In this document: in pieces, positions 4,555 through 62,402 of the stretch
How positions within the stretch are numbered: position 1 is the first letter of the stretch
How the letters are laid out: every line of letters begins with the position of its first letter
IMG/VR virus record: IMGVR_UViG_3300032241_001301
Coordinates: 1-62,402 of that record
DNA length: 62,402 bases
Reading direction: 5' to 3' (one strand)
Source: a virus
Position numbers and translations under genes: made by a program
Notes under the pieces: generated by a model
Seen by the model: only the letters and a program-made list of their open reading frames with translations
Databases searched by the model: none
Told to the model about the DNA's origin: nothing

Positions 4555-4568
4555 TTCACTATCAACGA

Positions 4569-5348: not shown

Positions 5349-5405
5349 TTAGGGGTTCCTTTCGGCTTCGTCATAAATGCTATACCCAGATTTCACTACC
5401 AGCGA

Positions 5406-5831: not shown

Positions 5832-5841
5832 TATGTTTTCC

Positions 5842-6270: not shown

Positions 6271-6328
6271 AGTTTTGCATTCCTTTCGGGTCTGCGTAAA
6301 TGCTATACCTAGATTTCTAAATGTTATT

Positions 6329-12860: not shown

Positions 12861-12861
12861 T

Positions 12862-12891
12862 TTGCGTTGCGTCACACCGATGTAGTAAGAT
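12862..12891 (+). promoter_or_regulatory. Plus-strand promoter 3
   Basis: TTGCGT (12862-12867), 18 nt, TAAGAT (12886-12891), starting right after the previous stop codon. The spacer shares GTCACACCG with promoter 2. An ACTGATGAAAGGA leader follows before the ATG at 12940. Confidence 0.65.
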
Positions 12892-12939
12892 AGTACCGTA
12901 GTACAGTAGTTCCAAACCAACTGATGAAAGGATTACCAA

Positions 12940-13518: not shown

Positions 13519-13528
13519 CCAAGTTCGT

Positions 13529-13632
13529 CACGGTGGGTAAGGGAAACTAACCATTCGGTTGTTATCCGCCCCCTTGCCCACTGTGCCGTCATTCCAATCC
13601 CCGACCAATCGTGAGGAACGGTTGGTGATTGG
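13529..13632 (+). other. Two hairpins upstream of the terminator
   Basis: Immediately after the Gam-like gene, CACGGTGGGTAAGGG (13529-13543) pairs with CCCTTGCCCACTGTG (13571-13585), 15 bp with two G-U pairs. A second hairpin spans 13594-13632 (CCAATC...GATTGG with further pairing inside). With the terminator, that is three stem-loops in 150 nt without a gene. It may be a processed 3' UTR RNA or an mRNA-stabilising element. Confidence 0.5.
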
Positions 13633-13638
13633 ATAAAG

Positions 13639-13681
13639 CAAAACCCCTAGCCAATCCGTTTTGGAAAGGCTAGGGGTTTTG
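13639..13681. terminator. Bidirectional terminator between converging genes
   Basis: CAAAACCCCTAGCC (13639-13652) and GGCTAGGGGTTTTG (13668-13681) are perfect complements, 14 bp, flanked by A and T runs on each side. It lies between the plus-strand Gam-like gene and the converging minus-strand holin-like gene, so it can end transcripts from both sides. Confidence 0.88.
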
Positions 13682-13736
13682 TTACGCCTACCAAGGTGGG
13701 CATGAACTCTTGTCGGGGTTCAGCCCCAACGTAGCA

Positions 13737-45500: not shown

Positions 45501-48500
45501 GCGAGGCGGCCAGTTTTGAGGGCGTGTCTGCGTCGTTGTCTCGGCAGAATACTGCTGAAACTCCAGTTGTGCCAGTAGTCGTACAGAGCCATACGCCGTT
45601 CTGCGTCTGCGTCGTCTGACCGGCAAACAGCACACGGTCACCCGTTGATGCGCTTATTGTGTATCCATCAACGACAAAAGCCCCCGTCGCCGTGACGGTG
45701 AAGGTATCCACGTTGAGGGGAATGTCATTGGTTGTGTTTGCGCCGGTGGTGACTGTGCCGTTCGGGTTTGCGGCAGAGATACCCGTCGAGACGTAGGTTC
45801 CAGCGATGTTGGACGTGGAGACCACTTGGACCGACTGGTGGAGTTGGAAGTTCACCCACTCAGGGCCGCCGTTGGCGATGTTGCCGTAGGACATGAGCAG
45901 AGAGCCCGCCGAGCCGGTAGCGCCACCACCGTTGGAGGACGTGTCGGTGTAGCCACCGGATGCGTTTCCGAATGGAATAGCACCAGGGGTAAGCCCAACG
46001 TCTTGCGTGACGATGTTGGTGTCAATAACGTACCAACCAGGCGTGGTGGTAGTGAGGTAGCAGAACTGAACCGAACCGCCAGCAGGGATGCTGAAAGTTG
46101 TAAGTGCCGTTGAGTTAAAAGCGTAGATGTTACTGCTGTTGGGGTTGACCGTCAACGTCTGTGTCGAGTTGTTGGTGATGGTGTTAATGGTTGAGTTTTG
46201 AAGTGCGCTAGTTCCGCCGGGTGGGTAGTAGCCCGAAGGCAAGGTGGTCGGTGGAAGATACATCGTGAGGGCTGATGTACCCGTGACAATAGTTTCTTCG
46301 CCAGGGTAGACAGGCGCACCCGAAGTGGTGGAAGCGGAACGAATCTGTGCGTAGTTTGACTGCGACAGAAGGGTGGCGTGAGCCGTGGTTACACCAATAC
46401 CCTGAATAGCACTAACCTTAGTAAGACCCGTATTGGTTAGTGAAACGTCGCCGGAGAAAGACTGCGCCCCCCACTGAGTGCCATTGTAAATAATGGTTTG
46501 ACCCGATGTAGATGGGTTGTTGACGAACTGCGAACCCTGAATGTAATTCTGTGGTCCAGCAGCACCCTGCGAACCATTGGTTCCGTTTGTTCCGGCAACC
46601 CCCTGTGGCCCTTGGGGAATGGCGAAATTCAAAGTTGCGGCACCAGCAGTACCTGTGTTAGTAACTAATGCTGGGTTGCCATACGTAGTGGTGGAAACGG
46701 TGCCTACGGCTACTGATGCCTGTACGCCTTGGTATCCCTGATTTCCCTGCGCACCGTTTGTACCGTTTGTACCGTTATTACCTTGGAACCCTTGGAACCC
46801 TTGGAACCCTTGATTGCCTTGGTTTCCTTTTTGTGATTGCACCAGCCACGTATTGGCATTGTTGTCGTAGACAAATGACACTGAACCGTACACACCGGAC
46901 GCAAGGGTGATAGACCCACCCTGAATAGTGTCGGACCCCGAGGCGCTGATTACTGTCTGGTAAGTAGCCGTAGCAAGGGAAGCAACCGACACGACTGACC
47001 CGTTGCTCGGTGCGCTGGGTAGTGAAATAGTAATACCCGTAGTTGTTGGGTTGCAGACTACGTAGTCATTTGGTAAAGCATTGTAACTGGCGTTGGTAGT
47101 GACCGTTGGAACAAGAAGCGTCGAGGTGGCTGGCGACCATTGGTTCGTAGTAGTGCTGTAGCGCAACACTTGATTGTTTGTAGGCGTTGTATTGGCTACG
47201 GGAAAGCCCTGTATTCCACCAACAACGGGTTTGGGGTATGACCCCGTAAGGTCGCCAGTGGCAACCGTTCCCCACTCGTCTACTTGGAGCAACCACGTGG
47301 TGTTATTTGCGTCGTAGACAAACGAACGGGAGTTGAAGAACCCGTAGGCAAGGGTGGAACTACCGCCCGAAATAACGTCTGAACCACTTGGCGTAATGGT
47401 GACTGTTTGTGTGGCGGTAGAAAGGTTGCATACCGAAACTACTGAACCATTTGCCGGTGTTGCCGGTAGTGAAATGGTGATACCAGCCGACGTGGGATTG
47501 CAAACGACATAATCATTTGGAATTGCCGAATAGTTTGCCGTCTTGGTGGTGGTTGGAATAAGAAGCGTAGATGTTGCCGGTGTCCACGCATTGGTGGACG
47601 AGTTGTAGCGAAGCACTTGGTTGCTCGTGGGGGCAACATTGGAAACCGCAACCCCTTGTATTTTGGCAACGGTGGGGTTAGGGTAGTTTCCGCTAAGGTC
47701 GCCACCAGCAGTGCCATTTGATGGCCCCTGAATACCTTGGTAGCCTTGATAGCCCTGATTTCCCTGAGTTCCTTGGTTGCCCTGATAACCCTGTACCCCT
47801 TGAACCCCTTGTGTACCTTGGTACCCCTGATTTCCCTGTACGCCCTGATAGGTGATTTGTTGGATACTGAAAAGAACACTGTCGCCTGCAGGGACGGTTG
47901 GGCTTGTCTGCGCTGGTATGGCGTAGATGCTTACGCTTGTTGCGGAAGGAACCCAACAAAGTTGGTAGTAGTCGTTGGCGTTTGCTGGAATATTGAACGT
48001 TGCCGTTCCCGATGCAAAGCCGTTTGAGCCAGCGTGTGATGATGGCACGTTGACAACAATGTTGGTAGTTGGAACATCGGCCCCGTTTAGGCGTATCCAA
48101 AGGTCGGCGTTCTGTTCTTGATTACTACTGCTAGTGAAAAATACTTGGTAAGTAAGCGTGTAGTTGCCAGCGTTGGCAATCTTAACTTGCGAACCGTTGC
48201 TTGCCGTTGAGCCAGCATTTACCAACGTAATGCCATTTTGGAAAGCAACACTACCAATGGCGACAATGTTTACTGCGGTGGTAGAACCCGTTTGATTGGT
48301 CGTGTCGTAAAAGCCACCCCAATACGAATTGACACCACCAGCACCCTGAACGCCTTGATAGCCTTGCGCACCGATACCGCCTGCTTGCGTAAAGTTGATA
48401 GGGTCGGTACCAATACGGATTGTTCCGTCAGGGTTGGAACCATCGTCGTATTGCACCCACGTTGTTCCGGCATACAGCGTTCCACTAATGACGAACACAT

Positions 48501-50124: not shown

Positions 50125-50145
50125 TTCACCCTCGACGGGTCATCC

Positions 50146-50862
50146 TTAGTTGCTCAGCAACCACGTTGGCGTGACCTTCAAGGTGTCATTAGCCCCAAGG
50201 ATAGGTCCATTGTTCGACCCCGAACTGTCGGCAAAATTGGACGCAAAGTAGATGTTTCCACCAGTACCGGAGGGGTCGTCGGTGATGAAATATCCGTTCA
50301 CTTGGGGCCATGTTCCATAGGCGGTGAACGTAACTTGGCTACCTGTGGACTTTTGACCGTTTACGCTATCGCCAATGTAGACAGTAGTGCCATTCCCCCA
50401 AGCGAAATTGGAAATTGGTGATGAAAGAGTGACTGACGAACCGTTGATGCCGGTGATGACCCGAATATCGTCAATGCCGGTTCCAAAACCAATGTCTATT
50501 GTCATTCCAACAGCCACGCCAGCGGTGCTAGAAAGTCCAATCAACCAATCGCCAATGTTTGCGTTGCCAGATGTAGTGGTGGAAATGTCTGGCACGATGT
50601 ATGACGTAGCAGTAGTGACTTCATTCCACGTCACGGGCTGACGGGAATAACCAGATGCCAAGTTGCCACCACTGCCCCAGATTTCGTACCCATTGTCGTT
50701 TAGCAAGTAAAGGGTTTGGGTGGGGTCAGGAACGGTAGTGCCACTAAATCCGGTGAAAAGACCAACGTAGTACGCAGCCCCGTGAAGGGTAGAACCAGAC
50801 GTAGGAATCAAAAGTTGGTTGAAAATGGCGGTCAGCCCTTGATTAAAGAATACTTGCGCCAT
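50146..50862 (-). CDS. Virion structural protein, fibre-associated
   Basis: A 238-residue protein with FFNQGLTAIFNQLLIP at the start and YYVGLFTGFSG, then beta-rich repeats (AGVAVGMTIDIGFG, VRVITGINGSSVTLSSP pattern). The start is like that of small phage proteins encoded before tail fibres. The middle module resembles those in the giant tail protein. It is transcribed just ahead of the collagen-like fibre and may cap or attach it. Confidence 0.6.
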   Translation of the reverse strand: MAQVFFNQGLTAIFNQLLIPTSGSTLHGAAYYVGLFTGFSGTTVPDPTQTLYLLNDNGYEIWGSGGNLASGYSRQPVTWNEVTTATSYIVPDISTTTSGNANIGDWLIGLSSTAGVAVGMTIDIGFGTGIDDIRVITGINGSSVTLSSPISNFAWGNGTTVYIGDSVNGQKSTGSQVTFTAYGTWPQVNGYFITDDPSGTGGNIYFASNFADSSGSNNGPILGANDTLKVTPTWLLSN

Positions 50863-50888
50863 TTATGCTCCCGTAGGTTTCGTTGTTC

Positions 50889-51383
50889 CTATTCTTTCAC
50901 AACATTTGGATTTTCTAGCAACGCCCCTATTTTACTATGCAATTTGTGGATTTCGTGGGTAAGTCGGGTGTTGGTAGAAAGTTCCCGTTCGACCTTTTGG
51001 AGCATTTCTGAGATTTCCCGTGAAAGGTTTAAGTGCGCTGTTGACTGCTCAGCAGCAATTGCATCAGCACGTTTGGCTGCGATAAGCAGGATTGACCCTT
51101 GTAGTCCAGCCAACATAGAAAGAAACAAGTTCAGCAAAATGAAGGGATAGGGGTCGAACCCCTTATTGTTGAGCCAATAGACATTGACACTTGCCCAAAT
51201 CACCATAAACGATAGAAACGACGCTACAAATCCCCAACTACCCATTTTGTTTCGTACCGCATCGGCTGCTTTTTCACCACGGGTTAGTTCGCCCCCCGTG
51301 CGTACATACGGGTGGTCGTTCCACGGATTAGACGGGTCGTTCCAATCCGGTGTGGTTCCGTCGGTCCAAATGTCGTTAGACAT
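50889..51383 (-). CDS. DUF1003 family membrane protein
   Basis: A 164-residue protein. After a polar N-terminus come GSWGFVASFLSFMVIWASVNV and FDPYPFILLNLFLSMLAGLQ, the two membrane helices and the FDPYPFILLN signature of DUF1003. A coiled-coil tail (LSREISEMLQKVERELSTN) follows, facing the cytoplasm. DUF1003 proteins are widespread in bacteria but their role is not settled. It overlaps the DUF4406 gene by 8 nt. In a phage it may modify the host membrane or act in lysis or exclusion. Confidence 0.78.
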   Translation of the reverse strand: MSNDIWTDGTTPDWNDPSNPWNDHPYVRTGGELTRGEKAADAVRNKMGSWGFVASFLSFMVIWASVNVYWLNNKGFDPYPFILLNLFLSMLAGLQGSILLIAAKRADAIAAEQSTAHLNLSREISEMLQKVERELSTNTRLTHEIHKLHSKIGALLENPNVVKE

Positions 51384-51741
51384 TTAGCATTTCCGCCCTT
51401 GTGATTATTTTCACATTGGTAAGTAGTTCCAGTACTTCGGGACGGTGCTTGTGGTACGCATACACGGGAATACCCGACGCTACAGCGCAGGTGATTTCTA
51501 CTTTGGAACCCTCACTGCGTGACCAGCCCGGGAGGACTACGACGGCATCACATTTCAGTAGTTGTTCCAAATGCGACTTCATCAACGAGGCAAGTTGTTC
51601 AGGGGTTTCTGATGCTACGTTGGATTCAGCAGGGCAATACACGTCATTGCCTTTATTCCGTAGACGTAGGCGTGCTTCCTCAAATGCTGAAAAGTTATGG
51701 TGTGGGATACCCCTCATGGGGCCAGAAATGAATAACCGCAT
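51376..51741 (-). CDS. DUF4406 / nucleoside 2-deoxyribosyltransferase-like protein
   Basis: A 121-residue protein starting MRLFISGPMRGIPHHNFSAF, with VYCPAESN, CDAVVVLPGWSRSEGSKVEI and AVASGIPVYAY. These are the conserved blocks of DUF4406, a Rossmann-like relative of nucleoside 2-deoxyribosyltransferases. A nucleotide-metabolism role is likely. A TTG 12 nt upstream could add four residues; neither start has a strong ribosome site. Confidence 0.78.
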   Translation of the reverse strand: MRLFISGPMRGIPHHNFSAFEEARLRLRNKGNDVYCPAESNVASETPEQLASLMKSHLEQLLKCDAVVVLPGWSRSEGSKVEITCAVASGIPVYAYHKHRPEVLELLTNVKIITRAEMLNV

Positions 51742-51776
51742 AGTCAAATACAACGATACCTGACGTATTTGTAAAT

Positions 51777-52034
51777 CTACTTCTTAGCAGTAGCCTTAGC
51801 CTTCTTGGCAGTGGTGATTGGAACCACAACCTCGTCGGGCGTTTCGTCAACGGGGGTTTCCACCACAGTTTGCGATAGTTCTTCGATTTCCGCCTTTGTC
51901 AAAGGAATAAGGAAATCAGTACTTACTAGAACGGTGGTGTTATTCCAACCTGAAGCGTCTACAAGGTCGCCAACGTGGTAATCAACGGAACCGGCAGGAA
52001 GGAATTTAGCGACACGGTGAGTGGGTGTAGTCAT
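51777..52034 (-). CDS. Small protein after the capsid gene
   Basis: An 85-residue protein starting MTTPTHRVAKFLPAGSVDYHVGDLVDASGW and ending in a Lys/Ala tail (KKAKATAKK). An alternative GTG at 52043 would add three residues. The ATG is 7 nt after a TATAGT box, so it may be leaderless, although the -35 is poor. It lies behind the capsid terminator. Not recognised; a head-associated role is possible. Confidence 0.55.
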   Translation of the reverse strand: MTTPTHRVAKFLPAGSVDYHVGDLVDASGWNNTTVLVSTDFLIPLTKAEIEELSQTVVETPVDETPDEVVVPITTAKKAKATAKK

Positions 52035-52062
52035 ACTTTTCACTATACCACACTATAAAGCA

Positions 52063-52094
52063 GAAACCCCCCACCCGTGGGGGCAGGGGGTTCC
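52063..52094 (-). terminator. Terminator after the major capsid gene
   Basis: On the minus strand GAACCCCCTGCCCCCAC pairs with GTGGGGGGTTTC, then a short T-rich tail. It lies 20 nt after the capsid stop codon. It would favour capsid mRNA over downstream genes. Confidence 0.75.
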
Positions 52095-52113
52095 CACTTG
52101 AGACTTTTGGAAC

Positions 52114-53112
52114 TTAGATAATGCTGTTCCAGAAGAAGCCGAGGTCGGCAGCGACAACCTTGTCGTCGAAAGCGATTTCACCTTCAACACGGTCAGCCTT
52201 GAGTTCTTCCATACGGAAGCGGCTAACACCGACGGTCGTACCAAGACCACCCGAAACACCAGTCCACATGAACGTGTAACCAGCCGAAGGGGTCATCAGA
52301 CCGGGGTTAGGAGCCGAGTAGCACAGCAAGGCGTTGGTGTTCGCCGTGAAGTTGTACGAACCAGCAACACCCTCGTCAGACGTGTTCACGACTGCCTTAG
52401 CAACCAGCACACGGTCGAGGCCGAACAACTGCGCAAGCAGGTCTTCGGTCACGATGGCACCGGCTTGGGTGTACTTGTAGCGGTCAACCAGCGTAGGGTG
52501 GGCCTTCAACTTCTGAAAGACAGGGTACGACAACACCAAGGTGTTGGGTTCGTAACCAGTGTTCTGAAGCACGGTGTACTTGGCGTACTCAACGTCCACG
52601 ATAGGCAGGGCGTTGGTGTAGTCCGACCACTTGATGGTGCTGTTCGTACCAGGAACGTAGGTAGTACCACCCGAAGAGTAGGCACCGGCTACGGCATCCG
52701 TACCCCACACGCCACCTTGGAAGAAGTCAGTCGCCCACTGAATCTCACGGCGGAGAAGCAGACGCTGGGTGACGAACTGAGTCGCTTCCATGTCGGGGTT
52801 GAGGGGGTTGTCGGCGTTAGCACGGGTCTGGTCACCAATGTCCTTGTGGAAGGCGAACACGTCGGCTTGGTAGGTGTCCGTGGTAAGACCGTAGCCTGAA
52901 CCAGCGGAAGCCGTACCGTCAGCACGACGCTGAGCCTCGTCACGGAACCAGTCGTCCTTGGTGTACTTGAAGTACAGGTTGGACTTCTTGTCAACAGGAA
53001 TCACGGGGAAAACCTTGTCGGCAATAAAGTTGTTGGTGTTCTGCAAGTACGCAACCGAGATGTTGGTCAAGATTGCGTCAATGTGAACATTGTTTACGTT
53101 GGGCTGTGGCAT
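52114..53112 (-). CDS. Major capsid protein
   Basis: A 332-residue protein with HIDAILTNISVAYLQ and FIADKVFPVIPVDKKS at the start, DDWFRDEAQRRADGTASAG, then RANADNPLNPDMEATQFV and LLLRREIQWATDFF. This is the gpE-like/actinophage major capsid family, HK97 fold. It follows scaffold and decoration genes and is followed by a terminator. The codons are more G/C-ending than those of the neighbours, as expected of the most highly expressed gene. Confidence 0.9.
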   Translation of the reverse strand: MPQPNVNNVHIDAILTNISVAYLQNTNNFIADKVFPVIPVDKKSNLYFKYTKDDWFRDEAQRRADGTASAGSGYGLTTDTYQADVFAFHKDIGDQTRANADNPLNPDMEATQFVTQRLLLRREIQWATDFFQGGVWGTDAVAGAYSSGGTTYVPGTNSTIKWSDYTNALPIVDVEYAKYTVLQNTGYEPNTLVLSYPVFQKLKAHPTLVDRYKYTQAGAIVTEDLLAQLFGLDRVLVAKAVVNTSDEGVAGSYNFTANTNALLCYSAPNPGLMTPSAGYTFMWTGVSGGLGTTVGVSRFRMEELKADRVEGEIAFDDKVVAADLGFFWNSII

Positions 53113-53134
53113 TTTATTTCACTAGCCTTTCTGA

Positions 53135-53845
53135 CTAAGCCACACGACCGGCAGCGGCGGTAGCAACAGCGACGGTAATAACGTCGCCAGCACCAGTGCT
53201 GGGGGTCAAAGCGGTTCCGAGTACAAAGTAGGAGTTGGGGGCGTAGGTAGTGCTGGAAGCAAACGTCGCCGTAACGGCACGACCCTGCGAGTCAATGGTG
53301 ATAGCGTCACCGGCGGTAACAACACCACCAGAAATAACCTTGCTAACACCAGAAACCGTGATTTCCGCCTCCGAGAAGCCCTCCACCGCCGAGGTGGCGT
53401 TCAACTTGGTGATGGGCTGGTTCTGGAGAATACCAATCGGGCGGTCCGTCGAAGCCGATACCGCCGTGGCAACGGGGCCATTCTGGTAAGGCTGTGACGA
53501 AGGAATCACCGTCAAGGTGCAAGACGACTGGGCAGACGTAGCAGGCGTAGAGATGTTGATGCTGTACGTCGTACCGTTGATGGCGATGTTGGTGATAAAG
53601 GCACCCGTGGGGATACCCGTACCGGCGACGCTGGCACCAGTGACCAGACCAACCAGCGACGAAACGCCAGTAATTGAGGTCGTACCGGAAACGACGTTGC
53701 CGGTGATGGTGGCAGTCTTACCAGCAATCTTCACAAACTTGAACTGCGCCGACGAGGACACAGAGCCGTTAGTGATGGTGCTAGCAAGCGAGTTGTCAGC
53801 CGTAAGGGAAATCTTTACGGCGTAGGGGTTCTGTTCAAAAGCCAT
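53135..53845 (-). CDS. Capsid decoration protein with inserted beta module
   Basis: A 236-residue protein. The C-terminal half (STDRPIGILQNQPITKL, SKVISGGVVTAGDAITIDSQGRAV) matches DUF2190-type head decoration proteins, which stabilise the capsid surface. Residues about 40-110 carry an extra module, ITGNVVSGTTSITGVSSLVG then GASVAGTGIPTGAFIT, of the same type as those repeated in the giant tail protein. The insertion probably projects outward. It lies between scaffold and capsid genes. Confidence 0.75.
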   Translation of the reverse strand: MAFEQNPYAVKISLTADNSLASTITNGSVSSSAQFKFVKIAGKTATITGNVVSGTTSITGVSSLVGLVTGASVAGTGIPTGAFITNIAINGTTYSINISTPATSAQSSCTLTVIPSSQPYQNGPVATAVSASTDRPIGILQNQPITKLNATSAVEGFSEAEITVSGVSKVISGGVVTAGDAITIDSQGRAVTATFASSTTYAPNSYFVLGTALTPSTGAGDVITVAVATAAAGRVA

Positions 53846-53848
53846 GGA

Positions 53849-54670
53849 CTATCGAGCCTTCTCGTTGAGGTACTGCGTGTAAAGGTCGGGGTTCGACTGC
53901 GCAACAGCCATCAAAGCAGCCTCAAACGAAGGAGCCGTGCCGGAAGCAACAGCAGCCTTAGCGAGGTTCTCCATCTTGGAGAAAGCGTCGTCGGAGGGAA
54001 CAACAGCGTCCGAACCGATTTCAGTAAAGACGGCGTTAGCGTCCATAAGGGCGTTAGCGCTGTCCAGTGCCTTGACAACTTCGTTGGCGAGGATACCGTC
54101 GGACTCGGCAAGGCGACGAAGCGCCGGACCGACAACGGTGGGGTCAATGTTGAGGTGCGACCAGCCAGCAGCCTTGATAACCGCAGCCTCATCAGCACGG
54201 GCTTCACGCTCGGCAATGAGGGCGGCTTCCGAAGCAGCGGCCTTACGAAGAGCAGCCTCGGCGGATGCCGAAGCCTCGTCCAACATCTTGCGGATAGCCT
54301 GCGGCATAGCCTTCAAAATGTCGGCCTCGTTCGCAGCCTCTGGGTAGATGGTCACATCGGTGTCCATCGCAGAAAACTGTGACATAATTTCTTCTTTCTT
54401 GAAATTATTGAGGGTTTCCAAAACGGCGTATGCCGCCTTGGCGGTTTCCAACTCAAACGTTTCCGTGGTTTCCACCACAGGCGCTTCCGCAACCACGTTT
54501 TCAACGACGGGCGCTTCGGCAACGATTTCAGTAGGACGGATTTCGTCAAGCAGGGCAGATGCTTCTTCTGGGTTTGCAGACTTCATAACGACCCAACCAT
54601 CGTGGAGGTGCGCAGGGTGGTCAACACCCGACGTTTCCTTGATGCTCAGGCGTACTAGTTTGCGAGCCAT
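53849..54670 (-). CDS. Capsid scaffolding protein (XkdF-like start)
   Basis: A 273-residue protein. The start, ARKLVRLSIKETSGVDHPAH and GWVVMKSANPEE, has the pattern found at the N-terminus of phage scaffold/maturation-protease proteins. The rest is helical, Ala/Glu-rich (ASAEAALRKAAASEAALIAE, continuing), as in scaffolds. The ATG at 54670 is used instead of the far upstream frame start because the homologous region begins there. No complete protease triad is seen; maturation could depend on another protein. Confidence 0.68.
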   Translation of the reverse strand: MARKLVRLSIKETSGVDHPAHLHDGWVVMKSANPEEASALLDEIRPTEIVAEAPVVENVVAEAPVVETTETFELETAKAAYAVLETLNNFKKEEIMSQFSAMDTDVTIYPEAANEADILKAMPQAIRKMLDEASASAEAALRKAAASEAALIAEREARADEAAVIKAAGWSHLNIDPTVVGPALRRLAESDGILANEVVKALDSANALMDANAVFTEIGSDAVVPSDDAFSKMENLAKAAVASGTAPSFEAALMAVAQSNPDLYTQYLNEKAR

Positions 54671-54722
54671 AAATTCACTTTCTGCTTGACCAGTAGGTAA
54701 CCCAATGGTCTTGACAAAAGAA

Positions 54723-54750
54723 AGCGTAAATGACGTTTTGGAAATGTCAA
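54723..54750 (-). promoter_or_regulatory. Candidate promoter of the capsid operon
   Basis: On the minus strand TTGACA (54745-54750), 16 nt, TACGCT (54723-54728). It lies in the 110-bp gap before the scaffold gene and after the nuclease gene. A small CCCC/GGGG hairpin sits just upstream. Likely start of the structural transcript. Confidence 0.5.
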
Positions 54751-54780
54751 GTGTTGAAACCCCTAATGGGGTGAAACGCC

Positions 54781-55596
54781 CTAAAAGGGGTCGTCGGCAA
54801 CCGTTGAAAACAACGGGCAAATGTTCTTAAACGAACACCACTTATCGCACAAATTGTTGGCGGTTGGTGGAAAGTATCCGGCGTTGTACCAACCCTCAAT
54901 CTTGGACCACGCTTCACGGACACGCTTTTCAGCGTAAGCCACGTCGGCATCGGTCACTTCGACGGTAAGGGTCTTTCCAAACTGGACGTAGTGAAGTTGG
55001 ATTTCGACGGGACGTTCACCTAGTTCCCGTTCGCAAAGATAGGCGTAGATTTTCGCCGGAAGGATTGCTGAAGCCTTGTACTTATCTTGTGGCACCTTGC
55101 CGGTCTTGTAGTCCACAATGACTAGTGCGCCATCAGCACGCCGGTCTAAGCGGTCTAGGATGCCACGAAGCAACCAGCCACCCATGTCGGTGTCCAACTT
55201 GATTTCGATACCCTCGGTGGTGATTTCCGTGGGGTTTTCCATCTTGAAGTAGTTGCGTATGTATTTAGCAACGTCGGCGGTAAGCGATTGTGCGCCGATT
55301 TCGTCTAGTTCCATTTCGGAAGCAATTTCGGGGGTGACTAGCGTGGGCATAAGTTTACGCATAATCGCCATTGTTAGTTCAATGGTGCGTTCGTGGGGCG
55401 TTTCCACCGTGCGCAGAAACATCTCCTCGAGGATGGCGTGGAACACGGTGCCACGGTACGTTTCCATTTTCTTTCGTTCTGGCAAACGTTCGATGGTGGA
55501 GTACTGGTATTGACGTGGGCAATTTTCGATTTGCCCTACCCGACTTGGTGATACACCATAGGGCTTTTCGCCAAGATACACGGGGGTTGCCGACAC
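54781..55596 (-). CDS. Cas4/RecB-like PD-(D/E)XK exonuclease with iron-sulphur cysteines
   Basis: A 271-residue nuclease. Motifs: His53 in GTVFHAILEE, Asp148 in GILDRLD, Asp162-x-Lys164 in VDYKTGK, and Gln200 in the following strand. Cys26 together with Cys250, Cys254 and Cys260 (CDKWCSFKNIC) forms the set that binds a 4Fe-4S cluster in Cas4 and AddB. It cuts or resects DNA ends. No Cas genes or CRISPR array are near, so a recombination or host-DNA degradation role is preferred. The start is GTG at 55596. Confidence 0.85.
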   Translation of the reverse strand: MSATPVYLGEKPYGVSPSRVGQIENCPRQYQYSTIERLPERKKMETYRGTVFHAILEEMFLRTVETPHERTIELTMAIMRKLMPTLVTPEIASEMELDEIGAQSLTADVAKYIRNYFKMENPTEITTEGIEIKLDTDMGGWLLRGILDRLDRRADGALVIVDYKTGKVPQDKYKASAILPAKIYAYLCERELGERPVEIQLHYVQFGKTLTVEVTDADVAYAEKRVREAWSKIEGWYNAGYFPPTANNLCDKWCSFKNICPLFSTVADDPF

Positions 55597-55616
55597 GATT
55601 ACAACCCTAGCAGACC

Positions 55617-55886
55617 CTATTCATACAGTGGTGTAAGGGTGTTGTATTTCATTACGGGCAATAGTGCGATGCAAATGTTCTCGGCTAGGTACTTTGCTTG
55701 CGTCAAGTCTTTAGCGTAAATAGAAAAGTCGCTAATCGGGGCAATTACTCCACCAACGTTGTCACGTCGTATGACACGTAGTTCGCCGTATTCTTTGCCT
55801 TGCCAAGCGATAAAGGTGAACGCCCCATACGTCGCCTCCGTTTGCCCGAAGTCATCGACCTCGGACCACTCGACGTTATTGGGCAT
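55617..55886 (-). CDS. Hypothetical protein
   Basis: An 89-residue protein starting MPNNVEWSEVDDFGQ at 55886. It overlaps the upstream coiled-coil gene by 11 nt. It has an alternating beta pattern (YGAFTFIAWQGKEYGELRVI) and no known motif. It shares a transcript with the nuclease gene. Confidence 0.6.
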   Translation of the reverse strand: MPNNVEWSEVDDFGQTEATYGAFTFIAWQGKEYGELRVIRRDNVGGVIAPISDFSIYAKDLTQAKYLAENICIALLPVMKYNTLTPLYE

Positions 55887-56151
55887 CGGTTTCCTCGGCG
55901 TACTGGACAAGGTGGTGCGCCGTCTGAAGGACCGTAAGGCCGTCAATCTTGTTTTCCAACTTGGTGATTTGTTCGCCAGCATCGACAACGGCTTGGCGCA
56001 GTCGGGCGTTGTCGCTAACAAGGTGTTCGATAGTGGCACGCTGGGTCAACGCCGTATCCATAAGTGCGGTGATGTCGTTGGTGTTGTAAGCGTCTTGTAC
56101 AAGTGCCGTATGGATTTTGTTAACAAGTTCATCGAGGGTAATCGTGGTCAC
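55876..56151 (-). CDS. Small coiled-coil protein
   Basis: A 91-residue, mostly helical protein (VSDNARLRQAVVDAGEQIT with heptads) starting at a GTG with AGGAG 6 nt upstream. A weak promoter (TTCACT, 18 nt, TACACT) may lie before it. Not recognised; the pattern suits a small oligomer or adaptor. Confidence 0.6.
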   Translation of the reverse strand: MTTITLDELVNKIHTALVQDAYNTNDITALMDTALTQRATIEHLVSDNARLRQAVVDAGEQITKLENKIDGLTVLQTAHHLVQYAEETDAQ

Positions 56152-56209
56152 GTTTGCTCCTAACGGCAGTAGATACTACCTACCTATAGTGTAGCACGGT
56201 TATACGGTG

Positions 56210-56584
56210 TCAGTGAACTTCGCCGGTGTACTTTAGCAAGTCCGTAAGCGGTGCGTCCGCCGGTGGGTTGTATTCGACTTCGGTGCGATGGTGGCAAAAC
56301 GAACATTGGATTAGCAACGGGTTCGCAACTTTGCTAACTCGCCAATCGTGTTCGCACGTCTTAGGGTCGCCCGTGTTCACCACACGTATGTTCCGGTTCT
56401 TTGCGCCGAAGGTGATTAGACCCCGTTGCTTTAGGCGCATAAGCATCACGTGAACGGACGACGTTGATTTGTACCCGACCGCCTGCATAATCGCCCGATA
56501 GGACGGTGCGCAATGAAGTTCTTTCCAGTGCCATTTGATGAATTCCAGTGCGTCCCAATCGGAGATAGGTAGTTCATTAGGCAT
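56210..56584 (-). CDS. LexA-type DNA-binding protein with zinc ribbon, no peptidase
   Basis: A 124-residue protein. Residues 8-67 form a LexA-like winged helix (ALEFIKWHWKELHCAPSYRA, VGYKSTSSVHVMLMRLKQRG, LITF). The C-terminal half has CEHDW ... CSFCHH, a likely zinc ribbon, in place of the self-cleaving LexA peptidase domain. It cannot therefore respond to RecA as LexA does. Its leaderless promoter faces away from the promoter of the large RNA, 52 bp separating the two -35 boxes. It is a strong candidate regulator of that region. Confidence 0.75.
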   Translation of the reverse strand: MPNELPISDWDALEFIKWHWKELHCAPSYRAIMQAVGYKSTSSVHVMLMRLKQRGLITFGAKNRNIRVVNTGDPKTCEHDWRVSKVANPLLIQCSFCHHRTEVEYNPPADAPLTDLLKYTGEVH

Positions 56585-56592
56585 AGGTAAAT

Positions 56593-56622
56593 AGTCTAGC
56601 GTGGTTTAGTGTGTAATGCCAA
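56593..56622 (-). promoter_or_regulatory. Leaderless promoter of the LexA-like gene
   Basis: On the minus strand TTGGCA (56617-56622), 18 nt, TAGACT (56593-56598). The ATG at 56584 is 8 nt after the -10 box, the same distance as at the helicase gene. No Shine-Dalgarno is present. Confidence 0.72.
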
Positions 56623-56674
56623 ACCCCAATAAATACAAGGGGAAAAAGATTTCTAAAAAACTTTGCGAAATAAC

Positions 56675-56703
56675 TTGACAATGTGACTAGACCCCTGTAT
56701 AGT
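56675..56703 (+). promoter_or_regulatory. Strong promoter of the large structured RNA
   Basis: TTGACA (56675-56680), 17 nt, TATAGT (56698-56703): a consensus -35, ideal spacing, and a near-consensus -10. It is one of the best promoters in the window. It faces a region without a credible protein gene. The start of transcription would be near 56710. Confidence 0.85.
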
Positions 56704-56709
56704 TGTTTA

Positions 56710-57307
56710 TGTAGTAACCGCAGTTGCCTGATGTAAAGACCCCACAAGTAAGTGGTCGTCGGGGGCTGGGGGTGTAGTATGGCAGTATCCGGTAAGTGTG
56801 GACCTTCCTCGATGCAAAGACGCTTCTAAGGCGTTTAGGGTGGCGGAGGTACTAACTTAGAAACGGTGCTTCCGATGTGCGTTCTACGTCGGGGGTCAGT
56901 AGGTGCGGTTGTCTTTTGCAAAAGGCAACCGGCAACTATTGGCTGACAGGCGTGTGGGCTAGGTCGGGGTTGGTGCCAGGCTTATCGGGTACTGTTGAGT
57001 GGTGTGTGGTTCGTAGTGCGATTGAGAAAAGCCCTAGAAGAAGTACCAAATCGAGTGAAGAAGGTTGGGTGGAGCGAAAGTTCCTTTTTCTCAATGGCAC
57101 TACGAGCCATCACCACGCAGTATAAAATCAAAATAAAAGTTGCACGGCGCAAGTGGTGTAGCAAGCCTTGACGGTGACACTCGTAGGGGTGTCAAGCAGG
57201 TCGGGAAGTTGGAAGCGAAGCGGTTAGCCCTAGGAAACGGGAAGTCCGATAAGTAGTCCAGCGATGGTGAAGTCCCCTAGCAAACGGCTGGGGGACTTTG
57301 CTTTTTT
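56710..57307 (+). ncRNA. Large structured non-coding RNA, about 600 nt
   Basis: A plus-strand transcription unit between minus-strand genes, with a strong promoter and a rho-independent terminator. Long-range pairing closes it: TAACCGC (56715-56721) with GCGGTTA (57220-57226). A hairpin joins 57011-57030 with 57086-57105 (19 of 20 pairs) and extends outward through TGG/CCA and GTGGTG (56999-57004)/CACCAC (57111-57116). Another spans 56896-56947 (GTCAG/CTGAC outside; GGTTGTCTTTT with AAAAGGCAACC inside). Smaller hairpins lie at 56818-56836 and 57167-57196. Frames inside are short and lack ribosome sites. Size, structure and phage context recall the large ornate RNAs GOLLD and ROOL. Sequence relatedness is not established. 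Confidence 0.82.
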
Positions 57308-57308
57308 G
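57270..57308 (+). terminator. Terminator of the large RNA
   Basis: AAGTCCCCTAGC (57270-57281) pairs with GGCTGGGGGACTT (57287-57299) around a short AAAC-type loop, followed by TGCTTTTTTGG. It is in the same orientation as the promoter at 56675. Confidence 0.88.
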
Positions 57309-57311
57309 GTG

Positions 57312-57340
57312 TTGATTTCCAAAATAAACAATGATAGAAT
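57312..57340 (+). promoter_or_regulatory. Second plus-strand promoter after the large RNA
   Basis: TTGATT (57312-57317), 17 nt, TAGAAT (57335-57340). It begins right after the large RNA's terminator. The overlapping inverted repeat TTCGCCC...GGGGCGAA (57340-57365) could be an operator. Confidence 0.5.
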
Positions 57341-57346
57341 TCGCCC

Positions 57347-57422
57347 GACAGTCTTGGGGGCGAATGGACACAACGCCAAGAACTTTCAGCCCTGCCCCTG
57401 CCGAAAGGTGGGGGCTTTGGCT
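57347..57422 (+). ncRNA. Possible small RNA of about 75 nt
   Basis: The stretch after the promoter contains TCTTGG (57352-57357) able to pair with CCAAGA a short way downstream, and then a GC-rich hairpin (AGCCC...GGGGGCT, about 57391-57416) followed by a T-rich end. There is no open frame of note. It ends where the minus-strand gene at 57422 ends, so the hairpin may also serve that gene. Confidence 0.4.
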
Positions 57423-57712
57423 TACTGTTGGGTAATCCCTAGTTCCCGACGTGCTTCATCCAACAACCGTTCGGTGAAAACTGCTGGGTCATCTTCCGTT
57501 TTGGAATACGCCATTAGTCGCCCCGAAGCGATGCTGAACGCCCAGTTGTACAGGCGTAGTTCGTTCTTTAGTTCTTCAATGGTGTGGTGAAGTTCGTTGT
57601 TGTGCGCCACCATTGTGTCGTGTTGGCGTACTAGCAACTCGAGGGACTTATTGGCGGTTGATAAGTTGTTCTTTGCCGACTCGAGTTGTTCTTTGATTTC
57701 GTTCTTACGCAC
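57422..57712 (-). CDS. Coiled-coil protein
   Basis: A 96-residue helical protein with heptads (LESAKNNLSTANKSLELLV, HNNELHHTIEELKNELRL). The GTG start at 57712 lies inside the last codons of the 55-residue gene before it, so translation is coupled. Function unknown. Confidence 0.62.
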   Translation of the reverse strand: MRKNEIKEQLESAKNNLSTANKSLELLVRQHDTMVAHNNELHHTIEELKNELRLYNWAFSIASGRLMAYSKTEDDPAVFTERLLDEARRELGITQQ

Positions 57713-57872
57713 GATGGCCCTTGGTGAAATCTATGAACTTAGTTTGGAAGTTAGACGCTTCGGCTTGTGTAGTGAAATCCGGCGTAGTAATCACGGTGTG
57801 ATAGTACCCGTCGTCGCCTTGGTACGTCTTTAGGTAATACCCGTTTCCATTCCAAATTTCTACTAACCGCAC
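57705..57872 (-). CDS. Small 55-residue protein (short overlapping gene)
   Basis: A GTG-started frame, MRLVEIWNGNGYYLKTYQGD ... ending IDFTKGHRA, fills the otherwise empty gap between two genes. It overlaps the previous gene by 10 nt and the next by 8 nt, the pattern of a tightly packed operon. The composition is that of a folded protein, with WNGNGYYLKTY and HTVITTPDFTTQAEA segments. Two GATTTCA words within it (57723 region and 57770) are part of the dispersed motif. Function unknown. Confidence 0.6.
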   Translation of the reverse strand: MRLVEIWNGNGYYLKTYQGDDGYYHTVITTPDFTTQAEASNFQTKFIDFTKGHRA

Positions 57873-58078
57873 TGTTCGTCCATTCCTTTATAGGATTGCG
57901 CCACCGCCTCCCATTCCTGAATGTTACCAACACGGACGACGTGGACGCAGATGTCATTTCCAGCATCAACAAGTTCTACTTCGGTGGGCGACATTTCGTA
58001 TCCCTCGTGCGTGTCGCACACGATTTCACTAACGTATCCAAGGGATTGACCGTATGTAATCCATTCAACAAAATTCAT
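57863..58078 (-). CDS. Small hypothetical protein
   Basis: A 71-residue protein, MNFVEWITYGQSLGYVSEIV, then CDTHEGYEMSPTEVELVDAG and CVHVVRV. It starts at the ATG at 58078, just after the methyltransferase stop at 58089; a longer frame into the methyltransferase gene is not needed. Acidic, with CDTHEG and CVHV that may bind metal. Not recognised. Confidence 0.62.
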   Translation of the reverse strand: MNFVEWITYGQSLGYVSEIVCDTHEGYEMSPTEVELVDAGNDICVHVVRVGNIQEWEAVAQSYKGMDEQCG

Positions 58079-58088
58079 CTGCTTGTGC

Positions 58089-59186
58089 TTATCCAAGTTC
58101 GACGGTGTTGAAGAGGGGTGCGTCACTAGTAATCCTGCTTTCTGCAAGTTTGGCGTATTCGGGGTTCAATTCTGTCCCCACAAAGTTTCTACCATACCGA
58201 AGCGCAACTACCGCCGTTGTACCAGAACCTGTAAAGGGGTCAAGGACGGTATCGCCTTCTGCTGAACCTGCCAAGACACACGGGGTAATCAAATCTTCGG
58301 GGTAAGTGGCAAAGTGCGCCCCCTTGTACGGCTTGGTGGAAACAGTCCATACGTCACGCTTATTCCGTGTTTCGTAGGACTTGGTTAGACCGCTGTGTGG
58401 TGTTAGACCCGTACCCTCGTTGTGGTACTTGCCGTTGGTGCGGTCACGGGTTCCCCAATCTTGGGCTGGTTCCTTGATTGCTTCATTATCAAAGTAATAA
58501 CGTGGTGATTTAGAAAGCAGGAAGATGTATTCGTGCGATTTTGTACAACGGTCACTAACCGATTCGGGCATTGGATTTGGTTTCGCCCAGATAATGTCCT
58601 GACGCAAAATCCAGCCATCATCTTGTAGGGCAAATGCCAAACGCCACGGAATACCAATCATGTTCTTGGCTGGCAAATCTACGCCCGATTTCACTAACGT
58701 GCCTTCCAAAGTTCCCTGACTTGTGGCTTGCTTGCTTTCGGGGTCAACATTTACCGTGCCGTCGCCATTTCTGCCTTTACCCGACCCAGCGTAGGAATCA
58801 CCAATGTTTAGCCAGACTGTTCCGTCGTCAGTAAGCACACGGCGTATTTCACGGAATAAAACAACAAGGGCTTCGACAAATTCTTCTGGTGTTTCTTCCA
58901 AGCCCATTTGTTCATCTTCACGGATAGCACCGCAACGTGGGCATACGGTCTTGTAGATAGCGTCGCCTACGGTAAGCAGTTCGTTGGCGTGACCTGTCTC
59001 GGTGGACTTGCCACGCTTGTTGTCACGCTGGTGGGTACAATCAGGGTCACCACCTTGCCAATCGCCTGTTCCATAGTCTCGTAGACCGTAATAAGGCGGT
59101 GAGGTGATGACGGTACGAACGCTTTGGTCGGGCAGTTCCTTTAGCCTGACGTTGGCATTACCTATGAGTATTTTGGCGTTGGACAC
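58089..59186 (-). CDS. DNA methyltransferase with zinc-finger-like insertion
   Basis: A 365-residue modification methylase. Motif IV TSPPY is at 28-32, and the SAM-binding motif DPFTGSGTT near 317-325, followed by GTELNPEYAKLAESRI. An insertion at about 45-95 has CTHQ and CPRCG and could bind zinc. The order IV before I is that of N4-cytosine/N6-adenine methylases of the beta type. No restriction partner is visible, so the protein probably protects phage DNA. It is a paralogue of the truncated gene at the left edge. Start GTG at 59186. Confidence 0.9.
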   Translation of the reverse strand: MSNAKILIGNANVRLKELPDQSVRTVITSPPYYGLRDYGTGDWQGGDPDCTHQRDNKRGKSTETGHANELLTVGDAIYKTVCPRCGAIREDEQMGLEETPEEFVEALVVLFREIRRVLTDDGTVWLNIGDSYAGSGKGRNGDGTVNVDPESKQATSQGTLEGTLVKSGVDLPAKNMIGIPWRLAFALQDDGWILRQDIIWAKPNPMPESVSDRCTKSHEYIFLLSKSPRYYFDNEAIKEPAQDWGTRDRTNGKYHNEGTGLTPHSGLTKSYETRNKRDVWTVSTKPYKGAHFATYPEDLITPCVLAGSAEGDTVLDPFTGSGTTAVVALRYGRNFVGTELNPEYAKLAESRITSDAPLFNTVELG

Positions 59187-59195
59187 CCTACTAAC

Positions 59196-59444
59196 TTAGC
59201 AGGGTTTAGTACCCCTGTGCTGTTCAAAGAACAAGTGACCTGATTCGTTTCCCTCTGCGTCGGCTGATGGGATAAGCACCATACCGTTGTCGAAGAAAAT
59301 CATCATCGGTGGTGTTTTCCATACGGAAATATCCCAGCCGTATGAGGAAGCCTCGCCAGTCGTCATCGCACGAACTTCGGTAACCCTCAAGCCAACCATG
59401 TGACCGTAGTTGTCCTCGACGTATTCCTCTGGTGTGTACTTCAT
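59196..59444 (-). CDS. Small hypothetical protein
   Basis: An 82-residue protein, MKYTPEEYVEDNYGHMVGLR, whose ATG overlaps the previous stop (TAATG). It contains an alternating beta region (MMIFFDNGMVLIPSADAEGN), as in small phage proteins that bind a partner. Unrecognised. Confidence 0.65.
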   Translation of the reverse strand: MKYTPEEYVEDNYGHMVGLRVTEVRAMTTGEASSYGWDISVWKTPPMMIFFDNGMVLIPSADAEGNESGHLFFEQHRGTKPC

Positions 59445-59758
59445 TACCGTCCAGCCCACGCCTTCTCACACTCGGCTACAAACGTCTTAGCCTCCGCAAC
59501 GTCGTCGTTGGTGAACATAGCGACGAAACTGATGTTGTTGTCGGTGTGCGCTTCGTCAAGGAAGAAGCCCCAACCGTAGGTGGTGTCCACTTCCTCGTAG
59601 CAACCCTTACAGACGTGGCTGTCCTCAACGTAGGTCGTTGAAGCGTTGCAACACTTGGTCATCACCACGACATAGCCACGACCGTCGTTCGCAATGTCGA
59701 TAATCAGTGAGCGACCCATTTCTACGACAGGTCCATTGACCATGGTTTCCGTTGCCAT
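59444..59758 (-). CDS. Small zinc-ribbon-like protein
   Basis: A 104-residue protein with CC (KCCNAS, about 35-36) and CKGC (about 50-53), a likely zinc knuckle, and an acidic C-terminal half (FTNDDVAEAKTFVAECEK). It has its own promoter and an AAGGAAG ribosome site. The leader carries the word AACTGATTAG shared with the plus-strand cassette. Confidence 0.65.
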   Translation of the reverse strand: MATETMVNGPVVEMGRSLIIDIANDGRGYVVVMTKCCNASTTYVEDSHVCKGCYEEVDTTYGWGFFLDEAHTDNNISFVAMFTNDDVAEAKTFVAECEKAWAGR

Positions 59759-59798
59759 TTTGACTTCCTTTGCTAATCAGTTGGATAGGTACATAACT

Positions 59799-59827
59799 AC
59801 TCTATCCCCGTTTAGTCACGCTGTCAA
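59799..59827 (-). promoter_or_regulatory. Promoter of the zinc-ribbon gene
   Basis: On the minus strand TTGACA (59822-59827), 17 nt, TAGAGT (59799-59804). It lies directly after the lysin gene and drives the genes at 59758 and 59444, perhaps also the methyltransferase. Confidence 0.75.
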
Positions 59828-59832
59828 GTCAT

Positions 59833-60375
59833 TTAGTAGCAACTGTAGTCGCCATCCCATTCGGGGTGGAATCCACCGTTGCGCTTGTAATAGAAAGACG
59901 CAACACGGAACTGGTCGGTGACGCTTGCTTCTTGGGCGTAGGTCGCTGAAATGCCTAGTGCCTTTGCCCCGTACTGCCAAATGTACGGAATGAACTGGAA
60001 GATACCACCAGCGCCTTGTTCGGCGTTGTAGTCCGTAGGGTGGAACACCGTGGGGGTCGAACGTGACTCGTGCCACATAATGCACGTGAAACCGGCACGG
60101 CTAGACGGTGGCAACAAATACATTGGGGCAGAAACGGGTTCAATTCGGGGCTTTGGAATTGCCCGATGGTGAACCGGCAACGTGGGGTGATACACCTTTG
60201 TGTGGGGCTTGGGGAAACTATTGCCAAACCACAAAATGGTGATGGTCTTGGGTGCCACATGGACGTGGGGCTTTTGGGCGTGAGGTTTCCCGATGGGGTG
60301 CGTGGTGAACACACTTGCCACTAGCGAAACTACAACTGTCAGTGCGAGGAAGCCACCTCGCACGGTGCCTAGCAC
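59833..60375 (-). CDS. Secreted lysozyme/transglycosylase-like lysin
   Basis: A 180-residue protein. Residues 9-24 are a hydrophobic signal or anchor (FLALTVVVSLVASVF). A His/Pro/Lys-rich linker to about 90 follows, then a lysozyme-like domain: CIMWHESR (catalytic Glu103), GAGGIFQFIPYIWQYG, and CY at the end; Cys98 and Cys179 may form a disulphide. This is the pattern of soluble transglycosylase/Rpf-like cell-wall hydrolases. With its own export signal it could act as endolysin without a classical holin, or remodel the wall. Start GTG at 60375. Confidence 0.72.
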   Translation of the reverse strand: MLGTVRGGFLALTVVVSLVASVFTTHPIGKPHAQKPHVHVAPKTITILWFGNSFPKPHTKVYHPTLPVHHRAIPKPRIEPVSAPMYLLPPSSRAGFTCIMWHESRSTPTVFHPTDYNAEQGAGGIFQFIPYIWQYGAKALGISATYAQEASVTDQFRVASFYYKRNGGFHPEWDGDYSCY

Positions 60376-60446
60376 CAGCCTGCCTTTATAGGCGAATACG
60401 AACTACCGCTAAAAACACGGCGTACAGCATTGGGGTTGTTGGACAC
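60369..60446 (-). CDS. Leader peptide-like ORF of 25 residues before the lysin
   Basis: A GTG-started frame, MSNNPNAVRRVFSGSSYSPI then KAGWC, with AAAGGAGG upstream, the best ribosome site nearby. It ends 7 nt inside the lysin gene start, so it could couple lysin translation. The alternative is that it is only a landing site for ribosomes. It is too short to prove as a protein. Confidence 0.4.
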   Translation of the reverse strand: MSNNPNAVRRVFSGSSYSPIKAGWC

Positions 60447-60480
60447 AACGCCTCCTTTGGTTGCCCATTGGGGTTGTCCT

Positions 60481-60509
60481 AGTTTACCCGACTGTGACGG
60501 ATAAGGCAA
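60481..60509 (-). promoter_or_regulatory. Promoter of the lysin unit
   Basis: On the minus strand TTGCCT (60504-60509), 17 nt, TAAACT (60481-60486). It lies in the 95-nt gap between the large right-edge gene (ends 60542) and the leader ORF. Confidence 0.6.
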
Positions 60510-60541
60510 GTATCAGAAAGTTTGCCCCTGTTTATCAGGTA

Positions 60542-62402
60542 TTATGGTAGTTTTTTGCCCTCAAGAAGCCACCTAAAGTTAGTTGGTTCGCTAGTGTCGA
60601 TGTCGTGCCATTCGCCGTTAGCGTCCATCCACTTATCACCCTCAACCCACATTGGACCAAGCAAGCCATCGGCAACATAGCCGATAGGTGCGACCCCACT
60701 TGTGGTGTTGGTGTTCTTTGACATAAACCCTACTTTAGCAGATTTGTCTATCTTTGTCCAGCCCATTATGTCAGCAATGTTCTTGACTATTGGAATGTCG
60801 GGGATAAGTGGTGATTGGAACGCACTGTGCGCCTCGGCAATCATTTCTTGCAGACTGCTGGAACCGTATCGTGACATACCCATTGACTGAAGGGTTTTTT
60901 GGATACTGTCGCTTAGTAGGTAACGCCCCACCCCTTGGTTCAGCAAGTAGTCAGCCATGTCAGCACGTTGGATAATGCTTCCGTCTGGCTGTCTCCAACC
61001 CGAGGTGCGTGGGTTGCTGGCAATGTAGTTTCTGATTGCGGTTTCTTGGCTTTTCTGCCAGTCCACTGGGGTTGTGCCAAGTTCTTGGGTGGTCTTTTCC
61101 AATGCTGGAAATATTTGGTTTATTTTCATACCCTGCGTATCGAAACTAGTGTGACCAAGTTCGTGGGTAATGGTTGCTTCAACGCTTGATTCGGGATTTA
61201 GAATGTCGTCGCTGTATGTCCACGATTTACTCATTGACTCTGGTGTGAAATCGCCCTGAACAACCGTGGGCCAACCACCCGACACGTTATTGTTGTAGAA
61301 ATCCTTTAGTTCTTGTGGGGCTTCTCCCATACCGGGTATTTCACCTGAACGCCAGTATGTTGTGACCGCCACCGACGACCACTTACCCATGTTGATGATG
61401 TTTGGTTTACCATCATTAACCCATGCGTGTGTTTGTTGAGATGCGTCAGGTGCTTTAGTGAAATCCAATGTTTTGCCTGGCCCGAACTTATCCAAAGCGG
61501 TCATCGCTGCTACGGAAAGTCGCTCGTCGGGCTTCCACCCCCTAGAACCTTTGGCAAAGATAGCGGTAGTGCCGTTCTTGGACTTGTAAAAGATTTGCTT
61601 CCCGTCTGGTGAAGTGCCGGTTTGCTTCCATCCCTTTGGAACGCCAACCTTGATACGTGGCACGTTTTTAGCATCGGTTAGTGCCTTGTAAGCGTTCCAA
61701 CCTTCTTTGGTGCCACTCCAACGAACATTATTTATTGTTTCCGCTTCACCGATTCCACCAGTCCATTGGTTGCCGTGAAAGTTATGCCCCTTTTTGTCGC
61801 CCTTGGTGATTTTGGCTTGGTCCTCGTCGAATTGTGCATTGATGGCAAGGTAGCGCAGTCGGTCGCCCTCTACCTCGTCGCCCTTATCGTAAGCGTCCTT
61901 GCTTTGCGCCCGTAGTTGTTCGGCGGTTGGCTTTTTGCCCTTACGCAGTGATTTCACTACATACGTGTTCCAAAGTTGATTGGCGACTTGGGAGATGGAT
62001 TGCTTCTTGGTGATACTTGATTTCGCCGCTTCCAAAAGTGCGTTGGCGTAGTCCTTTGCTTCAGCGTCGGTGCAAGTAGCAATGCCTTGGAAACGACCAA
62101 CAAGTTCGGGTGTTGCTGGAACAACGTCCCAATGCTTCACAATGGCAAAAGAACTCTTTAGAAAGTTGTCTTTTAGTTCCTGAAGGGTTTGTTCGCCGTT
62201 TCCGTCCACAAACTTATCGTCACCGATTTGTAGTGCGTAGTGCTGAACAAAGACGGGTGGGTAGTCCTTGCCTTCCTCCGGCTTGATTGGGTCGCCAATA
62301 GCGACAGGCTTGCCGTTGGGGTAGATGTTCTGTAGCGCCTTCATCACCACGCCGCAGCCACCAAACAAAGGGTGGTTGTTTGGGTAGGCGAGAAACCCTT
62401 GC
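60542..62402 (-). CDS. Multidomain protein with papain-like start, GNQW motif and HELGH metalloprotease (cut by right edge)
   Basis: The frame is open to the window end, so the N-terminus is missing. The visible part (over 600 residues) begins near PLFGGCGVVMKAL and VQHYALQIGDDKFVDGNGEQ, which suggests a Cys-His catalytic pair of a papain-like fold. GHNFHGNQWTGG (around residue 195 of the visible part) repeats the motif of proteins A-D. A region with ATITHELGHTSFD (around residue 402) has the HExxH zinc-protease signature; the third ligand is not identified. The gene precedes the head genes by several operons, where minor head or internal virion proteins may be encoded. Domain calls are inferred from motifs. 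Confidence 0.68.
   Translation of the reverse strand, partial: QGFLAYPNNHPLFGGCGVVMKALQNIYPNGKPVAIGDPIKPEEGKDYPPVFVQHYALQIGDDKFVDGNGEQTLQELKDNFLKSSFAIVKHWDVVPATPELVGRFQGIATCTDAEAKDYANALLEAAKSSITKKQSISQVANQLWNTYVVKSLRKGKKPTAEQLRAQSKDAYDKGDEVEGDRLRYLAINAQFDEDQAKITKGDKKGHNFHGNQWTGGIGEAETINNVRWSGTKEGWNAYKALTDAKNVPRIKVGVPKGWKQTGTSPDGKQIFYKSKNGTTAIFAKGSRGWKPDERLSVAAMTALDKFGPGKTLDFTKAPDASQQTHAWVNDGKPNIINMGKWSSVAVTTYWRSGEIPGMGEAPQELKDFYNNNVSGGWPTVVQGDFTPESMSKSWTYSDDILNPESSVEATITHELGHTSFDTQGMKINQIFPALEKTTQELGTTPVDWQKSQETAIRNYIASNPRTSGWRQPDGSIIQRADMADYLLNQGVGRYLLSDSIQKTLQSMGMSRYGSSSLQEMIAEAHSAFQSPLIPDIPIVKNIADIMGWTKIDKSAKVGFMSKNTNTTSGVAPIGYVADGLLGPMWVEGDKWMDANGEWHDIDTSEPTNFRWLLEGKKLP

Follow-up and report, generated by a model that had tools for sequence, protein, structure and literature searches.

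To our knowledge, GOLLD and ROOL are large structured phage RNAs whose roles are not known. Their genes are often located near tRNA islands, an association which for GOLLD is frequent and not universal. Described phage morons are mostly protein genes, and many small RNAs of bacteria are intergenic and possess their own promoter and terminator. Here, we analysed a putative RNA gene in a 62,402-nt stretch of viral DNA (IMG/VR record IMGVR_UViG_3300032241_001301; the whole stretch is hereafter called the window), for which a reading made from the letters alone had proposed either membership in the GOLLD/ROOL class or a new class in an actinobacterial phage. No description of this RNA was found in the literature.

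The gene occupies positions 56675-57308 of the plus strand and comprises a promoter, about 600 nt of predicted RNA and an intrinsic terminator. The sigma-70-type promoter (56675-56703) consists of TTGACA (56675-56680) and TATAGT (56698-56703) separated by 17 nt; with a score of 11/12 it is the best among 9 sigma-70-like sites in 50000-62402, a region whose shuffles yield 8.6 such sites of any quality, and within the 100 nt around the RNA start this score is reached by 0.3% of shuffles. Both boxes are identical in the related loci L003/L088 and L121 and similar in L166, L173, L096, and L177, with weak matches in L107, L116, L108, and L175. The terminator (57266-57307) is formed by a stem of 16 pairs followed by T6. 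The flanking genes, 56210-56584 (PHROG 3502, unknown function) and 57422-57712, are both on the minus strand, as are nearly all genes adjacent to the RNA in the 62.4-kb virus record. ORFs of 82, 58, and 54 aa overlap the RNA, none having a counterpart in relatives, and on the RNA strand no ORF within the RNA is common to them. Thus, own signals, the lack of a credible protein gene between them and the opposite orientation of both neighbours, all claimed by the sequence-only reading, were confirmed. The actinophage setting is supported as well: by capsid protein the nearest isolates are phages of Arthrobacter and Microbacterium (about 50% identity, 52% for Arthrobacter), which makes an actinobacterial host likely. 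Judged by these signals, the gene is predicted to be transcribed, and the RNA would be made independently of its phage neighbours. Directly behind it lies a second small RNA-like unit (57312-57418, plus strand) with a promoter TTGATT-17-TAGAAT, a terminator-like hairpin and a conserved TCGCCCGA...CTTGG...GGACACAACGCCAAG stretch; it is represented by 6 distinct sequences (window, L003, L085, L092, L097, and L144), also at other sites, and its helix reads CUUGG/CCAAG in the window and CUUAG/CUGAG in L097.

Relatives were revealed by a search with the neighbouring protein (L003, belonging to the same contig as L088), by a survey of loci found with the capsid protein (L121/L123, L107, L116, L096, L092, and L108), by pattern scans (L166, L168, L173, L175, and L177) and by a site survey (L156). 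Their comparison resolves the window RNA into modules following each other in the order A, B, D, and C. In L003 the promoter, the initial 75 nt and the final 190 nt are retained and the roughly 130 nt between them are unrelated (A+D'+C), while in L121/L123 the 5′ and 3′ parts are in nearly direct contact (A+C; L121, which lacks the entire middle of the window locus, has a vestige of the 5′ edge of B). A short 5′ end followed by B and C is found in L166 and L173; A+E+C3 in L096; A+E+F+C in L177; and A+E+F without core C in L092/L094, modules E and F being defined from shared sequence only. Judged by eye alone, F could be distantly related to C3. In L107 and L116, module C stands by itself, about 165 nt long. 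L108-110 carry module B continued by a different 3′ part having no core C match; the other structure seen there (L108 6740-6880, minus strand, also in L109 and L110) is perhaps a further 3′ core type. With lengths ranging among relatives from about 165 to 600 nt, the large size claimed for the RNA is valid for the window locus and does not characterise the class.

Core C, which measures about 125 nt without the terminator, contains hairpin C1 (57139-57162), whose GC-GNRA-GU tip has a single exception, L116, and in which 6 of 9 pairs change on both sides. It is followed by helix P2 and inner hairpin P2b (57175-57194), together spanning 57167-57205, with compensatory change illustrated by P2 itself (CUUGAC/GUCGGG in the window, CCCAAG/CUUGGG in L166, and CCUAGA/UCUAGG in L173), and by rod C3 (57208-57262) with conserved internal loops and a conserved apical GGAAA loop. 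Covariance model R1 describes the rod (7 sequences), and model R2 the whole core. Together they find the window, L088, the L121 group, L177, L166, L173, L107, L116, and L096 (R2 E about 1e-7 or better); L156, standing outside the R2 building set, is found by R2 at E 2e-4. In the R2 alignment, which contains 10 distinct core C sequences and, being fitted to the structure, leans towards it, two-sided change is seen at 18 of 37 pairs (0/500 shuffles as good) and 95% of cells pair against 30-46% in slid controls. A plain MAFFT alignment of 6 sequences gives the same picture, with 10/37 pairs changing on both sides (2/500 shuffles as good; 0/500 for the covariation score). The structure proposed for core C is thus supported by compensatory changes.

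Upstream modules are less constant. Module A (56710-56778) includes the start region and a 5′ hairpin (56719-56768) with conserved TGTAAAG.CCCCAC...GTGGTCG; it is conserved in L003, L121, L175, L092, L094, L096, and L177, and its inner helix changes from UGAUG/CGUCG in the window to GCUUG/CGAGC in L096/L177 with the hairpin kept. Module B (56781-56994) is a 215-nt domain closed by pairing of GGCAGTATCCGGTAAG (56781-56796) with CTTATCGGGTACTG (56981-56994) and occurring also in L166, L173, and L108-110; its end motifs stand 175-178 nt apart in the window, L166, and L108-110, an almost constant length, and two-sided change affects 23 of its 60 pairs (0/500 shuffles as good) among only 4 sequences, 2 of them close. 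Module D (57000-57124), a long hairpin, is the least conserved one; L003 has an unrelated hairpin in its place, and L121 lacks it. Its arms constitute the 20-position stem with one mismatch reported before, TCGTAGTGCGATTGAGAAAA at 57011-57030 with 57086-57105, which is indeed present. Of the 7-bp closing helix proposed between the two ends, probably TAACCGC (56715-56721) with GCGGTTA (57220-57226), the complementarity is real, but as a family feature the helix was rejected: its 3′ side is kept in relatives having no 5′ partner, and the pairing, which is not conserved, competes with conserved core helix P3c.

Folding energy agrees with a structured product. The RNA strand has an MFE of -269.7 kcal/mol and a z-score of -11.5 against 100 dinucleotide shuffles (-4.9 for the opposite strand), and among 84 windows of 600 nt sampled from both strands the lowest z belongs to the RNA locus, the runner-up overlapping it; with z about -11 to -14, this is the strongest fold sampled in the record. 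Several ORFs of 54-82 aa overlapping the locus might be taken to indicate that the locus is no RNA gene and reflects either fortuitous inverted repeats or an overlooked coding region; this hardly deserves consideration given such a z-score, both-sided changes at 18 pairs of core C and 23 of module B, and the absence of any frame surviving the indels and whole-domain losses between relatives. The compensatory-change check formulated beforehand for aligned relatives thus came out in favour of an RNA. A strong fold (600-nt z of roughly -6.5 to -7 for either strand) was also observed at 13515-13685, after the plus-strand genes 12306-13518, as nested hairpins and a terminator-like stem.

With these features, the RNA resembles GOLLD in being phage-borne, large and ornate and in the general plan of a conserved 3′ region, here core C, and variable 5′ region, here the changing modules. 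The resemblance concerns layout (PMC12286853) and does not extend to sequence or structure model. No Rfam family matched the RNA either at the gathering score or at E<=10 with permissive filters, the best hits at E<=10 being terminator-like stems, nothing above chance. The GOLLD and ROOL covariance models gave no match at either setting, and OLE, HEARO, and T-large, as far as each is included in the Rfam copy searched, gave none. Unlike GOLLD, the RNA has no tRNA neighbourhood (no tRNA genes were detected across the 62-kb window), and its family includes minimal members of about 165 nt with modules swapped or lost outright. ROOL is comparable in being a structured RNA of phages and in its length of about 600 nt, whereas length and domains vary widely among relatives of the window RNA. 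Assignment to the GOLLD/ROOL class therefore failed, and the alternative offered together with it, a new class, is favoured by covariation combined with the absence of any Rfam match. Formation of homo-oligomers or cages in the manner of GOLLD and ROOL, for which phage origin, length near 600 nt and elaborate structure speak, is unlikely given that none of GOLLD, ROOL and OLE matched at E<=10 and that the window is devoid of tRNA genes; moreover, a large cage as shared function is hardly possible since L107 and L116 carry core C only.

Genomic positions of the RNA vary. It resides beside the 56210 gene in the window and L088; before an exonuclease gene in L107, L116, L108-110, L121, and L156; beside a homologue of gene 59833 in L092, L094, L096, L175, and L177; and at further sites in L166 and L173, being at all carrier sites oriented opposite to its neighbours. 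In front of the exonuclease gene, where carriers have the RNA, the gap measures 21-59 nt in most relatives, so that the arrangement expected of a moron, a reversed insertion between genes adjacent in relatives, is observed. The same site in L138 (2530-2870, minus strand) contains, in reverse orientation, a small protein gene equipped with a TTGACA promoter of its own, found also in the same gap of L139 and L140. Since the RNA is present there in carriers and the protein gene in L138-140, the site appears to be an insertion hot spot taking both RNA and protein morons. The RNA itself is 91-93% identical between the window and L121, whose capsid, exonuclease and scaffold genes reach 64-80%; between L166 and L173 the identity is 92%, with neighbours at about 70%; between the window and L088 a methyltransferase gene (98%) is more alike than the RNA. 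Conservation above most genes may reflect a recent transfer, a strong constraint or a combination of the two.

Distribution of the RNA is spotty. At the site before the exonuclease gene it is absent from L085 and L086, which have a 95% identical capsid protein, and many whole relatives lack a core C match. Arthrobacter phages Ottawa and Salgado and Microbacterium phage ValentiniPuff, isolated relatives chosen for similar capsid, show neither a right-sized gap nor a core match in the vicinity of the capsid gene, and 41 methyltransferase-gene loci have no copy. DNA similarity searches gave only chance matches or terminator hairpins among 50,697 phage records and no copy of the RNA among plasmids; of 3 hits from a pattern scan of 84,980 genomes, the covariance model supports none, so that the scan revealed no copy in a host or prophage. 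Known distinct carriers of core C number only about ten, all uncultured, a count which excludes metagenome contigs, and the family is probably larger. The location within a few kb of the capsid gene in several carriers could point to a packaging or virion RNA of the pRNA type, a very improbable role given the mobility between sites; since the RNA is absent at that place from such close relatives as L085 and L086, and since many whole relatives have no core match, it cannot be a general requirement of packaging.

Transcription signals, compensatory change, gain, loss and exchange of modules, variety of sites and the lack of a conserved ORF make it probable that the locus encodes an autonomous, horizontally exchanged actinophage non-coding RNA "moron", a stable trans-acting folded RNA with a constant core and swappable domains. 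Own promoter and terminator, direction against the genes and spotty distribution are shared with phage morons; the present element differs in encoding a structured RNA, and one of its sites is occupied in some relatives by a protein moron. Such an RNA would act, if at all, as a folded molecule in trans. Core C with its GNRA tip and purine-rich GGAAA loop may represent a common effector or binding platform, and it is likely the functional centre because it recurs more frequently than any other part and occurs also by itself. The 5′ modules A, B, D, E, and F may be additions which are gained, lost and exchanged and which adjust the core to host factors. Pairing with phage or host mRNAs is a further conceivable mode of action, in line with the intergenic position and individual promoter and terminator typical of many bacterial sRNAs; the large size, high degree of structure and short, purine-rich conserved loops make this regulatory function quite unlikely.

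Module exchange, spotty presence and the moron site fit a host-facing role, and participation of the RNA moron in host takeover or counter-defence is a tentative proposal, somewhat short of an even chance. One form of it would be a decoy or mimic acting against host defence in the sense of an RNA anti-CRISPR or an antitoxin-like RNA. Moron setting, spotty distribution, module exchange and site changes fit an arms race, and phage RNA anti-CRISPRs (Racrs) are documented (PMC10651486). Like Racrs, the window RNA is a phage-encoded non-coding RNA with a candidate host-facing role; whereas Racrs mimic solitary CRISPR repeats, no such mimic was found in it. No CRISPR-repeat family of Rfam was detected at the gathering score, in a search that is not exhaustive as regards the host's own repeats, and one CRISPR-DR21 hit (E 6.4) is the terminator stem. 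The RNA also exceeds a repeat mimic by far in size and structure, and the decoy is rather doubtful. Tentative, with odds below even, is also the proposal of a new modular phage RNA class combining one conserved effector-like core with exchangeable folded domains, an RNA moron carried between phages and acting by shape against host factors; if true, it would be the RNA counterpart of domain-shuffled protein inhibitors. A search for a partner protein by co-occurrence yielded no clean candidate. Shuffling of folded-RNA domains coupled with moron movement would be unusual, and comparison of carriers with non-carriers offers a route to function. The family itself supplies natural deletion and swap variants down to about 165 nt, in which the functional part may be separable from ornaments.

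Other features of the window concern its proteins. Two minus-strand ORFs, 17139-30632 and 42547-50124, encode 4497 and 2525 aa, which is unusual for a 62-kb phage. The peptide motif GH.F.GNQ(W/Y) is present in the products of 4072-6432 and 60542-62368 and in many genes of L092, L096, L173, and L177, its hosts being many otherwise different phage proteins, some of them encoded in tandem gene runs.
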